64,000 nucleotides of DNA, from the NCBI RefSeq assembly GCF_035645195.1, contig NZ_DASQNA010000013.1:1-64000 (forward strand). The letters run 5' to 3'. The position numbers and the translations under genes were made by a program. Of the stretch, positions 1 to 13,015 are shown piece after piece. Source of the stretch: Paenibacillus sp. GTDB taxonomy: Bacteria > Bacillota > Bacilli > Paenibacillales > YIM-B00363. A model generated the notes under the pieces. That model saw only the letters and a program-made list of their open reading frames with translations, searched no databases and was not told where the DNA came from. Within the stretch, counting starts at the first letter, position 1; each line of letters starts with the position of its first letter.

Positions 1-96
1 AACGTGCCAACTATACAGTGTCGGTTCCCCGACGATTTCAATTGGAGTTATTTTCATGTCTTTTAAAAGAGCTTGTGTAAGTCTAAAAAATATCAC
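1..96 (-). CDS. Unknown ORF, cut by window edge (5' part only)
   Basis: An open frame of 32 codons runs from a GTG at 96 off the left end of the window. An AAAGGAAGAG ribosome-binding site lies about 6 bases before the GTG. An in-frame ATG at 57 is an alternative start but has no good ribosome-binding site. The visible peptide begins VIFFRLTQALLKDMKITPIE and matches no family I recognise. The start lies 36-42 bp inside the GTTATGTGAAACC repeat at 126-138, which is close to the spacing of the lipoprotein gene from its own repeat. I therefore read it as the ORF of the next cassette-like unit. Function unknown; the true length cannot be seen. Confidence 0.5.
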   Translation of the reverse strand, partial: MIFFRLTQALLKDMKITPIEIVGEPTLYSWHV

Positions 97-130
97 GGAT
101 ACTCTTCCTTTCACTGTTTCGCACTGGTTT

Positions 131-255
131 CACATAACGTCTTCTGCATTCACGAACCCTGAAGGGGTTGTCCGCAGCTCCAGCTTCCTTCGAATCATCG
201 TCTGCGGACCGAGGGGCAGCGTAGCTGGCCTGATGCGTGAATGCGGTGTTATATG
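131..255 (-). repeat. attC-like folded palindrome
   Basis: The ends are CACATAAC (131-138) and GTTATATG (248-255), complementary at 7 of 8 positions. Inside them lies a perfect 9-bp inverted repeat, GCATTCACG (146-154) and CGTGAATGC (236-244). Between these arms sit three smaller hairpins: AACCC/GGGTT (155-159, 165-169), GTCCGCAG/CTGCGGAC (170-177, 202-209) and CAGC/GCTG (217-220, 224-227). The R-spacer-L-loop-L-spacer-R layout, the length near 125 bp and the position just after the stop of an ORF in the same orientation are those of an integron attC site. The spacers (7 and 3 bases) and the repeat cores (ATAAC/GTTAT) only loosely fit the RYYYAAC/GTTRRRY consensus. A structured RNA or a transposon end remains possible. 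Confidence 0.5.
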
Positions 256-265
256 ATGCCGGACA
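248..265 (+). repeat. Inverted repeat B bounding the lipoprotein unit
   Basis: GTTATATGATGCCGGACA reads on the plus strand here. Its near-perfect complement (16 of 18) is at 772-789. Together they enclose the 282-749 gene in a unit of about 542 bp. The outer 8 bases are shared with the right end of the attC-like palindrome. A diverged third copy, GTTATGTGAAACCA in minus orientation, lies at 125-138. Confidence 0.7.
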
Positions 266-281
266 CTTCGGAGCTTTACCA

Positions 282-749
282 TCAAAAATCTTTCATTGCT
301 CGATAGTCACCAGTCTTATGGAATTGACTTACCCCGATTACTTCATTAATATAACCCTTGATTTCAATGATTGGGCTCTCTATATCAATATTCTTATTAT
401 CTTCGTACATTTCCTCGGGAGCAAATACTGAGAGTAGGACTTCTTCCCCTGGTTTGATATCAAGTTTATTATCCCTTGCCTCTATTTTAAATTCATTCCC
501 CTTCAAGCCTGTTCCGGTTATAATCGGGAAACTCAAATAAACATTATTCTGTTTTATTACTTGCTTGGATTTGTTATGCAGTCTAAGTGTATAATTTATC
601 CCACGTGGATTTTCTTGATGCTCTACTATCTCCAAACTTATATTATCGATATCTTGCGAGGTAACTATAACTTCATTGTTACACCCCGCAATAATCAGGG
701 AGAGTAAAAATATAACAAAACAAGTTAATGTCTCAATATTCCGCTTCAT
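282..749 (-). CDS. Small predicted lipoprotein of unknown function
   Basis: This encodes a 155-residue protein with a classic lipoprotein signal: MKRN, a hydrophobic stretch, then the lipobox LIIAGC with the acylated Cys at residue 23. The mature part (about 130 residues) is polar with alternating beta-like segments and no cysteine pairs, resembling a small immunoglobulin-like extracytoplasmic domain; this is inference only. The ATG at 749 is preceded by AGGGGGTAAC. Base composition is clearly AT-richer than the housekeeping genes from 2867 onward, which fits horizontal acquisition. The gene is framed by 18-bp inverted repeats and followed by the attC-like palindrome, so it looks like the cargo of a mobile cassette. 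Function not recognised. Confidence 0.75.
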   Translation of the reverse strand: MKRNIETLTCFVIFLLSLIIAGCNNEVIVTSQDIDNISLEIVEHQENPRGINYTLRLHNKSKQVIKQNNVYLSFPIITGTGLKGNEFKIEARDNKLDIKPGEEVLLSVFAPEEMYEDNKNIDIESPIIEIKGYINEVIGVSQFHKTGDYRAMKDF

Positions 750-771
750 GAGTTACCCCCTAATCAAAAAA

Positions 772-789
772 TGTCCGGTTTCATATAAC
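772..789 (-). repeat. Inverted repeat C bounding the lipoprotein unit
   Basis: On the minus strand this reads GTTATATGAAACCGGACA, the partner of the repeat at 248-265 with two mismatches. It lies 23 bp upstream of the lipoprotein start codon. Its GTTATATGAAACC half is nearly identical to the minus-strand GTTATGTGAAACC at 126-138, which lies at the corresponding position before the next ORF. In integron terms it would be the 3' end of an attC or an attI-like site. Confidence 0.65.
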
Positions 790-893
790 TTCTTATTTGT
801 GTATTTCTGGTAATTCCTCCGCCTCGGTTGGATTTGCGTATAAATGTTCTGCGAAGTGCTGATATTCCGGCGGAGTCGTAGGCCCGTGCCGCA
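790..893. other. Intergenic stretch beside repeat C
   Basis: This stretch separates the 894-1280 gene from repeat C. It contains one 7-bp inverted repeat, CTCCGCC (817-823) and GGCGGAG (869-875). Unlike the 131-255 element it lacks a complementary ATAAC core near 894, so it is at best a one-sided or decayed attC-like or attI-like site. No ORF, promoter or terminator is evident. Confidence 0.4.
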
Positions 894-1280
894 TCAATCA
901 AACTTGTGCAACCAGTACCGCCAGATGGCCAAGGTCCAATGATTGTTCAGGAACGGGACCAGCTCGTCTACACTGTGGAAGCGGCGGTGAACGTACCATT
1001 CGCGTTCTTTTTCACGGTGGGTGAGCTCGTCGCTGAAGCCGTAAAACAGGACTAGGTAGGTTGGCTGCTTGCGCACACGGAAAGCCTCGGCTTCGTCGGG
1101 CGTGCCAATGCGGACGTCGGCACGTTCGTGCACTTGTGCGAGCACGGTTTGAACGTCGGTCTCCCCGGTGCCGGAAAAAACGAGAATGCGCACCGAGGGG
1201 AAAAAGACATCCTTGAGCACGGTAAGCAGGATCATTAAAGCAAGCACGGCGAGGTAAAACATCTTTAGCTTTTTCCTCAC
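894..1280 (-). CDS. Membrane-anchored protein of unknown function, coupled to the recombinase
   Basis: This encodes a 128-residue protein with a basic N-terminus (MRKKLK) and one hydrophobic segment at about residues 7-27, then a soluble domain. It looks like a type II anchored or secreted protein with no lipobox. The soluble part starts RILVFSGTGETDVQ and contains a YLVLFYGF strand, suggesting a small alpha/beta domain; I do not recognise the family. The ATG overlaps the stop of the recombinase by 4 bases, so the two are probably translationally coupled and co-transcribed. The coupling hints at a role beside the recombinase, but that is inference. Confidence 0.65.
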   Translation of the reverse strand: MRKKLKMFYLAVLALMILLTVLKDVFFPSVRILVFSGTGETDVQTVLAQVHERADVRIGTPDEAEAFRVRKQPTYLVLFYGFSDELTHREKEREWYVHRRFHSVDELVPFLNNHWTLAIWRYWLHKFD

Positions 1281-2431
1281 GGAAGATCCCCCTCCCGCAG
1301 GGCATCCTGGCCAGCCATCAAACGATCTAACGGGCTTTGGATGCGCCGAATTTCCCGCGTGCTGACATGGGTGTACAGCTCCGTAGTCTTGACGTTCTTA
1401 TGGCCGAGCAGCTCTTGGATGTGGCGCAAGTCGACGCCGGCCTCCAACAGATGGGTGGCGAATGAATGCCGCAGGCTATGGACGGTAACGTCTTTCTGGA
1501 TGCGAGCCTTCGTTTTCGCCTGCTCGAACACTTTTTGGACGGATCGCTCGCTTAAGTGCCTTCGGGGGTCTTGGCCTGGGAACAGCCACGTTTCCGGACG
1601 CGCTTCGGCAAGGTATTGCTGCACCAGAGAGAGCGCGGCGGCGGAAAGCATGCTATAGCGGTCTTTCCGCCCCTTGCTTTGGCGTAAAAACACGGTGTTT
1701 CGTGCGAGGTCAAGATCTTGGACGCGCAAGCGAACGACTTCTCCGACGCGGAGCCCGGCTGAGTACGTGAGGGACAAGATCGCGCGATGCTTCAGGAACG
1801 TGACCGCCTGCAGCAGCCGCAGCACCTCCGCTCCGGACAATACATTCGGCAGCTTCTTTTCCCGCTTCGGGCGAACATATCGGACAGTGGCCGGTGCTTG
1901 TTTGCAAACGTGACGCATGTAGAACGACACCGCGCTGATCGCTTGATTGACGTAAGAATGGGAATGACCGGTTTGGAGCAGCCGTTCGCTGTATTGAGTC
2001 ACGACGTTAGCATCCCACTCGGTAGGCGTCCCTTCCGCTGCGGCGAGGAATCGCCTGACATGACCCGCGTAAGCGCGGATCGTTTTTGCACTGTACCCTC
2101 GGAGCCGCAGCTCCTGCAGCAGGACGTCTAGGTCGCGATCGGCCTCTACAGTAGCGGAGGCAGCGGAAGTGTCAACGCCCCGCTCCGCTTCGATGCGAGA
2201 CGACGAAGGCAGTTCGGCATAAAGAACCCAAGCGTTAGCCATCTCCGCGCCGCGAAACAATTCAAGAAGCGCCACCGCATTCGTTCGCGTGCGCGGCACG
2301 AGCCACATGCGTCGGTCCGGGTCGTATTCCCGGAACGGGATCGTCCGGATGTGCGAAAGCACCTCTTCGTCCCAAGGGCGCCATGCAATGCCAAGCCTAC
2401 GCTCGTCGATCGCCGTGAATGTAACTTTCAT
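1277..2431 (-). CDS. Tyrosine recombinase/integrase with an extra N-terminal domain
   Basis: This 384-residue tyrosine recombinase has an N-terminal segment of about 70 residues containing IPFREYDPDRRMWLVP. That segment resembles the short HARP/SNF2-associated DNA-binding motif rather than a normal arm domain. A SAM-like core-binding domain follows (about 100-190), then the catalytic domain with Arg in SAGLRVGEV, Lys in QSKGRKDR, His-x-x-Arg in HSLRHSFATHLL, and the final GHKNVKTTELYTHV carrying the nucleophilic Tyr. It ends in an SPLDRL tail seen in IntI-like and related recombinases. It lacks the extra segment between motifs that marks true integron integrases. An AGGAGG ribosome-binding site precedes the ATG. 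It is a second recombinase, distinct from the XerC at 50480-51385, and its neighbours suggest it mobilises the adjacent small units. Confidence 0.85.
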   Translation of the reverse strand: MKVTFTAIDERRLGIAWRPWDEEVLSHIRTIPFREYDPDRRMWLVPRTRTNAVALLELFRGAEMANAWVLYAELPSSSRIEAERGVDTSAASATVEADRDLDVLLQELRLRGYSAKTIRAYAGHVRRFLAAAEGTPTEWDANVVTQYSERLLQTGHSHSYVNQAISAVSFYMRHVCKQAPATVRYVRPKREKKLPNVLSGAEVLRLLQAVTFLKHRAILSLTYSAGLRVGEVVRLRVQDLDLARNTVFLRQSKGRKDRYSMLSAAALSLVQQYLAEARPETWLFPGQDPRRHLSERSVQKVFEQAKTKARIQKDVTVHSLRHSFATHLLEAGVDLRHIQELLGHKNVKTTELYTHVSTREIRRIQSPLDRLMAGQDALREGDLP

Positions 2432-2448
2432 GATACGATGTCCTCCTC

Positions 2449-2477
2449 ATTATATGGGAACTTCCCTATTTTGGAAA
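2449..2477 (-). promoter_or_regulatory. Recombinase promoter with embedded palindrome
   Basis: Read on the minus strand, a perfect -10 hexamer TATAAT (2454-2449) sits shortly before the AGGAGG of the recombinase. A weak -35 (TTTCCA) lies 18 bases upstream. The spacer contains the perfect palindrome GGGAAcTTCCC (2456-2466), well placed for a repressor. It does not match the Gram-positive LexA box GAAC-N4-GTTC, so the regulator is unknown. Confidence 0.5.
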
Positions 2478-11340: not shown

Positions 11341-12135
11341 CTATTGCGGCAGCAGCCCGAGCAGATGGACGAACGGAAACACGATGATCCACGAATCCGT
11401 CCGGTCCAGGATGCCCCCGTGGCCGGGCAAAATCGTGCCGGAATCTTTAATGTTGCGCACGCGCTTGTACGCGGATTGGATCAGATCGCCGAGCTGGCCG
11501 AGAACCGACACGAGCAAGCCGATGGCGACGGCTTCCCGCACGGTGAGCAGTTCGGGGCGAATCATCGCGAACGCGACCGCCGTCGCGATCGACACGAGGA
11601 TGCCGCCGACGGCGCCTTCCACCGTCTTCTTCGGCGAAATCGACGGCCACAGCAGCTTCTTCCCGAGCAGCCTGCCCGCGAAATACGCGCCGACGTCGGT
11701 CAGCCAAATGCAGCCGAACAGCAGCAGCGTCCAGAAGAGCCCCTCCGGCATCCAGCGCGTGTAGATCATATAGTGAAACCCGACGCCTATGTAAACGACA
11801 CCGATAAACAGCAGCGCGATTTTATCGATGCTCGTCCGATTTTGCGAAATGACCGTCAGCGCGAAAAACAAAAACATGAGCAGCCAGACGACCGTCTGCT
11901 GCGGCGGCACGCTCCAGCCGAACAGCATGTTCCATGGCACGACCAGATACAGGATGCCGGCGAAGCCGACGAGCGACGCGGGTTCCCTCGCTTTGGCCCC
12001 GTTCAGCCTCACGAACTCCTGGTAGGCGATGACCGCCAGCAGCGTGATTAGCAGCGTATACCAGCCGCTGCCCGCGGCCAGCATCGTCAGAAAGAAAAGC
12101 GCGGCAAGCAATCCCGTAATGATGCGTTGACGCAT
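11341..12135 (-). CDS. cdsA: Phosphatidate cytidylyltransferase
   Basis: This makes CDP-diacylglycerol from phosphatidic acid and CTP, the branch point to phosphatidylglycerol and phosphatidylethanolamine. It is a 264-residue integral membrane protein with about eight hydrophobic segments. The family signature is at the C-terminus: KDSGTILPGHGGILDRTDS, including the metal-binding Asp residues. WLTDVGAYFAGRLLG and SPKKTVEGAVGG are further conserved blocks. It lies between uppS and dxr in the conserved order, with a gap to dxr of only 10 bp. Confidence 0.96.
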   Translation of the reverse strand: MRQRIITGLLAALFFLTMLAAGSGWYTLLITLLAVIAYQEFVRLNGAKAREPASLVGFAGILYLVVPWNMLFGWSVPPQQTVVWLLMFLFFALTVISQNRTSIDKIALLFIGVVYIGVGFHYMIYTRWMPEGLFWTLLLFGCIWLTDVGAYFAGRLLGKKLLWPSISPKKTVEGAVGGILVSIATAVAFAMIRPELLTVREAVAIGLLVSVLGQLGDLIQSAYKRVRNIKDSGTILPGHGGILDRTDSWIIVFPFVHLLGLLPQ

Positions 12136-12166
12136 GTCAGCCGTACTCCCTTCTTCGCCGCCTCCG

Positions 12167-12931
12167 TTACAGCTTCCCGTATCGGCGCGCGCGCCCTTGA
12201 TAAGAACGAATGGCTTCGTGGAAATGCTCCGTACTGAAATCCGGCCAGAACACGTCAGTAAACCAGAGCTCCGTATACGCGAGCTGCCATAGCATGAAGT
12301 TGCTGATGCGCACCTCGCCGCTCGTCCGGATCAGCAGGTCGAGCTCCGGCAAACCGTCCGACTGCAAAAACGCGTTGATATCGGCTTCCGTCAGCTCATC
12401 GGGGTCGAGCCGGCCGTCCCTCGCCGCCTCGGCGACTTGACGCATGCCGAGCAGCAGCTCGCGGCGGCCGCCGTAATTCATCGCAAAATTCAAAATAAGT
12501 CCGGTATTATGCCGAGTCTCCTCGATGGCCGCATCGACCGCCCGCAGCGTATGCTCAGGGAGCCCTTCCCGCTCTCCCATCATGCGGATGCGCACGTTTT
12601 TCGCCTTCAGCTCCTCGATTTCCAGCGGAAAAAATTCTTGAGGCAGCTTCATGAGAAAATCGACTTCTTCTTGCGGACGCTTCCAATTTTCGGTCGAGAA
12701 CGCGTACAGCGTTAACGCCTTGATGCCGAGCGCATCGGCGGCGATCGCGATCGTCTTGACGTTCTTCATGCCGGCTCGGTGGCCGGCGATGCGCGGCATC
12801 CCGCGCTGCCGGGCCCACCGCCCGTTGCCGTCCATGATGATGGCGACATGCTTCGGAACGTTGTCAAGGCGCACCGGCTCGTCCGTCGACGGCTTCTTTC
12901 CCTCTCGGAACCACCCGAAAAGACGGTTCAT
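12167..12931 (-). CDS. uppS: Undecaprenyl diphosphate synthase (isoprenyl transferase)
   Basis: This condenses isopentenyl diphosphate with farnesyl diphosphate to give the C55 lipid carrier used in cell-wall synthesis. The protein has 254 residues. The catalytic block IIMDGNGRWARQRG holds the key Asp, and ALTLYAFSTENWKRP and LLIRTSGEVRISNFMLWQ are conserved; E. coli-type numbering would place the IPP-binding RTSGExR motif in the latter. The start at 12931 is preferred over the longer frame to 12976 because GGAAGGGG lies just before it and the longer N-terminus runs into the frr terminator hairpin. Confidence 0.96.
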   Translation of the reverse strand: MNRLFGWFREGKKPSTDEPVRLDNVPKHVAIIMDGNGRWARQRGMPRIAGHRAGMKNVKTIAIAADALGIKALTLYAFSTENWKRPQEEVDFLMKLPQEFFPLEIEELKAKNVRIRMMGEREGLPEHTLRAVDAAIEETRHNTGLILNFAMNYGGRRELLLGMRQVAEAARDGRLDPDELTEADINAFLQSDGLPELDLLIRTSGEVRISNFMLWQLAYTELWFTDVFWPDFSTEHFHEAIRSYQGRARRYGKL

Positions 12932-12976
12932 GACGCTTCCCCTTCCGCTTCCCGCGTTAACGTGTTTATGCAACAA

Positions 12977-13001
12977 CCCCCTGCCGCATGAAGCCAGGGG
13001 G
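12977..13001 (-). terminator. Hairpin after frr
   Basis: CCCCCTG (12977-12983) and CAGGGGG (12995-13001) pair with an 11-base loop between frr and uppS. On the minus strand it is followed by TTGTTG, a poor T run. It could be a partial terminator or an RNA-processing hairpin. Confidence 0.5.
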
Positions 13002-13015
13002 CCGTTCGAGTACGA

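Follow-up and report, generated by a model that had tools for sequence, protein, structure and literature searches.

Integrons and the locus examined

In classical integrons, the integrase IntI picks the bottom strand of the folded attC site via extrahelical bases that are held by the I2 helix (PMC2727003, PMC4792948). The IntI-specific domain is held to be necessary for reading these extrahelical bases, and an Xer-like ancestor that gained the domain has been proposed (PMC4792948). The survey made with IntegronFinder 2.0 found integrons to be nearly absent from Firmicutes, with one complete integron and a few integrase-less clusters (PMC9024848). In the open-access papers, no integron in Paenibacillus and no description of the system reported below was found.

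The present locus is a palindrome near the start of a 64,000-nucleotide stretch (the window) of Paenibacillus sp. Very probably, this palindrome serves as an attC-type recombination site in an integron-like cassette system carried on the chromosomes of Paenibacillales. At the level of sequence, the system is shown to consist of a predicted recombinase gene, an attI-like site and one-gene units of about 0.7 kb, each ending in a foldable site. In the window, the elements follow one another on the minus strand as recombinase gene (2431->1277), small ORF (1280->894), attI-like site ending at G789, first cassette (788->138) and next cassette. The assigned features are as follows:

1..137, minus strand: start of the next cassette, cut off by the contig end
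128..257, minus strand: attC-type cassette recombination site (match to covariance model R1, copies in the genome)
130..138, minus strand: R' box G|TTATGTGA; complementarity to the cassette's own R'' starts just after the G
138..788, minus strand: first gene cassette, 651 bp (5' end complementary to its own R''; 21-nt inverted repeat)
146..154, minus strand: L' box CGTGAATGC; spacer to R' of 7 nt
155..230, minus strand: three hairpins branching from the L stem (224-230/214-220; 202-209/170-177; 165-169/155-159), the terminal part of attC (folding; the same hairpins covary in alignment A4)
236..244, minus strand: L'' box GCATTCACG; spacer to R'' of 3 nt
248..256, minus strand: R'' box with the conserved TC flank, 5'-TCATATAAC-3' on the minus strand
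282..749, minus strand: cassette gene, 155 aa, with its stop about 25 bp before attC
789..859, minus strand: attI-like site ...ACCAGAAATACACAAATAAGAA|G789 ahead of the first cassette (aligned with attI of 16 other arrays)
894..1280, minus strand: 128-aa ORF located between the recombinase gene and attI (without a match to any family)
1277..2431, minus strand: tyrosine recombinase of the array, 384 aa (family profile searches)
2449..2477, minus strand: sigma-70-like promoter TTTCCA-17-TATAAT just upstream of the recombinase (consensus match only)

The palindrome and the array head

A sequence-only reading of the palindrome had described outer cores, a perfect 9-bp inner arm and three internal hairpins. 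All of these are present, with ATAAC at 134-138 facing GTTAT at 248-252, GCATTCACG at 146-154 facing CGTGAATGC at 236-244, and hairpins made by AACCC 155-159/GGGTT 165-169, GTCCGCAG 170-177/CTGCGGAC 202-209 and GGGCAGC 214-220/GCTGGCC 224-230. Since the cassettes read on the minus strand, the plus strand of the window corresponds to the attC bottom strand. When folded as ssDNA, as that reading had proposed, each strand is far more stable than its shuffles (plus strand, -30.6 kcal/mol, z -4.8, 1 of 200 shuffles as good; minus strand, -26.7 kcal/mol, z -3.7, none of 200). The pseudoknot suggested between CCAGCT and AGCTGG is complementary in the window copy but not conserved elsewhere, as other copies with a CCAGCTA loop carry AGCCGG, AGCGGA, AGTGGG or AGCGGG at the partner position. 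The palindrome was also said to follow an ORF stop; this is correct for the minus strand, on which the cassette gene (749->282) ends, and not for the plus strand, on which a spurious 66-aa ORF crosses the palindrome. On the minus strand, the crossover would fall after the G at 138 and before the T at 137.

A DNA search revealed 14 more places resembling the palindrome in the same genome (G000, 5.95 Mb), with 74-86% identity. These lie on contigs C33 and C41 in a single orientation and are mostly 0.55-0.9 kb apart. The covariance model R1 gave 18 sites in total in this genome (elsewhere in the analysis counted as at least 18), and the window site is a full-length match of 120.8 bits. An Rfam search of the palindrome returned nothing at the gathering score or at E<=0.5. 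The array on C33 begins at the first bases of that contig, the window array begins at base 1 of C13, and the two orientations fit one array split by assembly; the window array probably continues on C33.

Of 17 positions at the 5' end of the first cassette, 15 are complementary to the cassette's own R'', compared with 9 for the next best start, and a 21-nt inverted repeat (248-268/769-789) lies at the cassette ends. The 155-aa product has a lipoprotein-like start and a weak match to the transglutaminase C-terminal Ig-like family. Alignment of 17 arrays gave the attI consensus ...CGAAGTTCGTAAATAAGA.|GTTA, which is conserved up to G|TTA and of which the window site is a diverged version. The last part of attI resembles the L'-spacer-R' half of attC, and many attI sites have a second TTCG-containing box about 30 bp further up. 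In 12 other arrays, 107-194 bp separate the recombinase stop from attI, compared with 488 bp in the window; the gap in those 12 arrays is too short for the 128-aa ORF. This ORF (894-1280, minus strand) is membrane-like and overlaps the recombinase stop. A second array of this genome (L010, on C41 at about 248-252 kb) has four sites and an attI-like sequence before its first cassette, and no recombinase was detected near it.

Anatomy of the sites

The sites are mostly of three size types, about 100, 120 and 160-175 nt, which have in common an R stem, a central internal loop, an L stem of 8-9 bp and a three-hairpin branched top. As in canonical attC sites, R''/L'' and L'/R' form inverted pairs of boxes and the central spacer is unpaired; in nearly all sites scored, this spacer has 3 nt on one side and 6-7 nt on the other. 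The fold of one Cohnella site is less clear. The R boxes are GTTANNNGAAA and its complement, and the canonical R boxes are rare, GTTRRRY being found in 54 of 234 sites and RYYYAAC in 54 of 239. No conserved extrahelical base was found in the 8-9-bp L stem of the 120-130-nt and 103-nt types, the rarer types having been only sampled.

The sequence-only reading had made its case depend on compensatory changes in homologues, and such changes were found. Because the copies within this genome are close, alignment A2 alone gave modest covariation (5 double-change pairs; shuffles 256/500). An automatic consensus fold of the loose alignment lost two hairpins because of indels and was not used; a hand-set structure and the near-ungapped 103-nt family took its place. 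Among 24 such sites (alignment A4), 15 of the 33 pairs are changed on both sides, with 56 such cells, and 92% of the cells pair. None of 500 shuffles reached the double-change count or the covariation score of the 103-nt sites, and sliding the partners abolished the signal. Among 103 sites, the bottom strand is the more stable in 72 when linear and in 87 when circular. The top strand therefore folds nearly as well as the bottom strand, and strand choice is not established by folding.

Pairing between the two ends of a cassette

If a unit moves as a circle closed at G|TT, the start of a cassette is expected to pair with the R'' at its own far end and not with the preceding R''. This was examined in 111 cassettes of 20 arrays against a control that keeps the array and the conserved letters, so that a pairing signal in excess of the control is private to each cassette. 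At positions 4-6 after the G, 91/88/91% of the starts pair with their own R'', compared with 50/39/42% within the linear site and 49/34/39% for pairing with the array's other cassettes. Pairing with the own R'' at positions 11-16 amounts to 69-91% versus 26-41%, and position 10 is a conserved mismatch. The bottom-strand fold energy is -37.4 kcal/mol for the circle, -29.9 kcal/mol for the linear site and -29.8 kcal/mol with another cassette's start. The circle junction is the more stable in 100 of 103 cases, and about 7 kcal/mol is gained by the circular junction only. This pairing of each start with the end of the same unit shows, statistically, that a cassette unit is defined by its own 5' end and its own attC and behaves as a circle opened and closed at G|TT. 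Classical cassettes follow the same logic with 9-11 complementary nt (PMC2727003), compared with about 16 nt with an internal mismatch in this system.

Cassettes have a median length of 713 bp (IQR 672-876), and the longest ORF lies in the cassette orientation in 120 of 134 cassettes outside G032. The cargo includes NUDIX, GNAT, methyltransferase, nucleotidyltransferase and histidine phosphatase proteins and two Cass2 "integron-associated" proteins. Several repeats speak for cassette movement: one cassette is found in both the C33 and C41 arrays of this genome with 89% identity, cassette pairs recur between species at 68-97% identity, identical and near-identical cassettes are repeated along one array, and G032 has identical copies in more than one place. 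The G032 array (L067-L070, 80 kb) also holds dozens of cassettes of about 700 bp, mutually 73-97% identical, with no ORF over about 50 aa; these are apparently an amplified non-coding family. Other G032 cassettes (742, 763 and 343 bp) recur at the same length and are 100% identical where checked.

The linked tyrosine recombinase

The recombinase contains an extra N-terminal domain (1-95), a SAM-like domain, a catalytic domain and a C-terminal IQSPLDRL. Among family profiles, the best matches are NF040815 (XerA/integron integrase; 221.9 bits against a cut-off of 220) and TIGR02249 (integron integrase; 212 bits against a cut-off of 265). The TIGR02249 match falls short of the cut-off and is split in two, with profile positions 181-232 left out. 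In comparison with VchIntIA (2A3V), about 22 residues lie between the aligned blocks where IntI has about 64. The catalytic Lys motif and LRHSFA are 68 residues apart, a spacing like that of other XerA-like proteins (63-73) and shorter than in the IntIs from viral contigs (107-110). By the profile, VchIntIA and motif-spacing comparisons, the IntI-specific additional domain with the I2 helix, an insertion of about 40 residues, is absent from the recombinase. Judged by this defining feature, the predicted protein is not a member of the IntI family. The catalytic residues R228, K253, H318, R321, H344 and Y353 are invariant in alignment A3. In a tree of 48 sequences, IntI forms one clade (100/99) with the array recombinase family outside it, and the array family together with L077 forms its own clade (94/95). 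The tree supports no particular order of these two clades among the XerA-like lineages, and a sister grouping of the family with IntI passed the AU test (p-AU 0.157).

The extra N-terminal domain carries the motif GRxWxPxxRxWxxP and weakly matches HARP (E 0.0023 when the domain is searched by itself; three of 11 members at E<=0.1). HARP of eukaryotic annealing helicases binds forked DNA, and a role of the HARP-like domain in this system is speculation. Upstream of the recombinases, the best match to the LexA box CGAACNNNNGTTCG has 2-4 mismatches and no conserved place. No second, true IntI gene was found above the cut-off in this genome. A phage collection contained no record covering 80% of the recombinase. 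Viral contigs yielded mostly true IntIs and XerA-like proteins; L077 (49% identical) alone fell within the family, and a single weak site accompanies it.

Several recombinase genes contain internal stops or frameshifts, mostly beside intact arrays (L023, L026, L027, L029, L031, L032, L036, L049 and L057), i.e., the recombinase appears to be frequently lost. With the gene broken in many relatives, part of the arrays may be inactive or may depend on Xer proteins acting in trans. A recombinase gene on a Chryseobacterium plasmid (L061, NZ_CP041688.1, Bacteroidota, 11968-13011) is 38% identical over nearly the full length, including the extra N-terminal region; it has no R1 sites nearby, and a paired small ORF and Crp/Fnr gene occur twice downstream.

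Distribution in Paenibacillales

Sites were found in 175 of 296 genomes of the order (59%), in 26 of 48 genera, in Paenibacillus and Cohnella relatives. Recombinase relatives with species names include Cohnella mopanensis and Paenibacillus profundus, both of which carry arrays. The sites matched by the covariance model are regularly spaced in one orientation, and in G032 (one 5.1-Mb contig), 73 sites extend over about 75 kb, the most in one chromosome. Among 398 genomes across Bacillota, only four were R1-positive, all of this order, and therefore the R1 model has little background; outside the order, no R1 site was found in roughly 390 sampled Bacillota genomes. With thresholds of >130 bits for the recombinase and at least 2 sites, 60 relatives comprise 23 with recombinase and sites, 2 with recombinase only, 2 with sites only and 33 with neither (Fisher p 3.5e-12). 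True IntI above the cut-off is present in 2 of the 398 Bacillota genomes (G365 and G179), in agreement with the single complete Firmicutes integron (PMC9024848). These IntI genes are L064, L065 and L066, two of them in G365.

Proposed mechanism and alternative explanations

The arrays contain at least two attC sites less than 4 kb apart, one per cassette, with a linked tyrosine recombinase gene and an attI beside it. The sequence-only reading had named single-strand recombination of the attC type; one site per gene, covarying stems, complementarity in the cassette circle, attI and the linked recombinase all bear this out. In the proposed mechanism, the linked tyrosine recombinase would excise cassettes as circles by attC x attC recombination with a cut at G|TT, and excised cassettes would be inserted at attI by attI x attC recombination. 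The substrate may be the folded bottom strand, as in classical integrons, which is the less certain step. As the recombinase has no I2-bearing insertion and the L stem has no conserved extrahelical bases, recognition must therefore differ from the classical one if the bottom strand is the substrate. Candidates for setting the strand are the fixed 3-vs-6/7-nt central spacer, the branching of the top and the recombinase's additional N-terminal domain. The long outer stem, which is formed in the circle only, could tip the balance from further excision towards capture. As the recombinase and the cassettes point the same way, transcription of the cassettes may start at the recombinase promoter.

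Four other explanations were weighed. That the cassettes are moved by host XerC/XerD-type enzymes while the linked recombinase has another role is quite unlikely: several arrays do adjoin broken recombinase genes, but the recombinase lies 107-194 bp from attI in 12 arrays, its co-occurrence with sites is strong, and ordinary Xer-like paralogues are found in relatives without sites. If a Gram-positive host had acquired a classical integron together with its true IntI, the same layout and the same G|TT cut would be expected, and the best annotated names (XerA/integron integrase, integron integrase) point the same way. This is very unlikely in view of the two-piece TIGR02249 match below 265, the spans of about 22 versus about 64 residues against VchIntIA and of 68 versus 107-110 from Lys to LRHSFA, the IntI clade (100/99) that excludes the family, and the classical GTTRRRY/RYYYAAC in only 54/234 and 54/239 sites.

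Dispersed MITE/REP-like palindromes or transposon terminal inverted repeats that lie between genes by chance are likewise palindromic and repeated, and would give inverted ends on each unit. This explanation is extremely unlikely, as the copies form one-orientation arrays beside one recombinase family, an attI is present, and each unit has inverted ends of its own that covary, as shared terminal repeats would not. A structured RNA, which the sequence-only reading had kept as its alternative, or a terminator downstream of each gene would account for the position of each site behind a stop codon and for its good folding on the cassette strand as well. It is barely credible: Rfam has no match, and the strongest pairing joins the two ends of each cassette, so that the outer pairing is broken in a transcribed linear array and intact only between one cassette's ends. 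An RNA would require R''-R' pairing at positions 4-6 of the linear site, which is at background level.

The attC-type cassette system is the preferred explanation. It passes the integron-platform tests made but fails the IntI-family test, and is therefore a variant of the integron rather than an IntI member. On balance, integrons of a second kind seem to exist in Paenibacillales. Their recombinase would either have evolved from an Xer-like enzyme independently of IntI or have diverged before the I2-bearing insertion was acquired by IntI, and it would recombine a folded, branched attC without extrahelical bases, possibly read with the HARP-like N-terminal domain. Such a system would be either a convergent integron or the I2-less intermediate called for by the Xer-to-IntI scenario; an independent origin and an early split from IntI are both compatible with the tree. 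A system without both the IntI domain and the conserved bases makes the question of the need for the domain testable. Since 59% of the sampled genomes of one order carry these sites, soil Gram-positives would have a major gene-capture system that has gone unnoticed, plausibly through searches that look for IntI and canonical attC.

Comparison with known systems

XerA and IS91-associated tyrosine recombinases (e.g., L063, L059 and L061) belong to the same broad group as the array recombinase and have no IntI insertion, but no R1 sites lie beside L059 or L061. The rare true Bacillota integrons (Limnochorda pilosa, PMC9024848; G365 and G179) occur in the same phylum. In the sampled Bacillota genomes, a true IntI exceeds the cut-off in G365 and G179, whereas R1 attC sites were found only within this order. 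The integrons of Archaea are likewise integrons in an unexpected lineage; archaeal IntIs keep the IntI-specific additional domain (PMC9668308), which the present recombinase does not have.

The closest resemblance in layout is to the sedentary chromosomal integrons of the Vibrio cholerae type. Both have a recombinase, attI and a long one-orientation array of single-gene cassettes, a palindromic foldable site after each gene, a G|TT cut, a cassette start complementary to its own R'', similar cargo and arrays of tens of cassettes (73 sites in G032). In contrast to the Vibrio cholerae type, the recombinase of the Paenibacillales system lies outside the IntI clade, has no IntI insertion and reads toward the cassettes. 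Its sites differ in the R boxes (GTTANNNGAAA / TC-NNN-TAAC), in the L stem without conserved extrahelical bases, in the three-hairpin branched top and in the longer outer stem.
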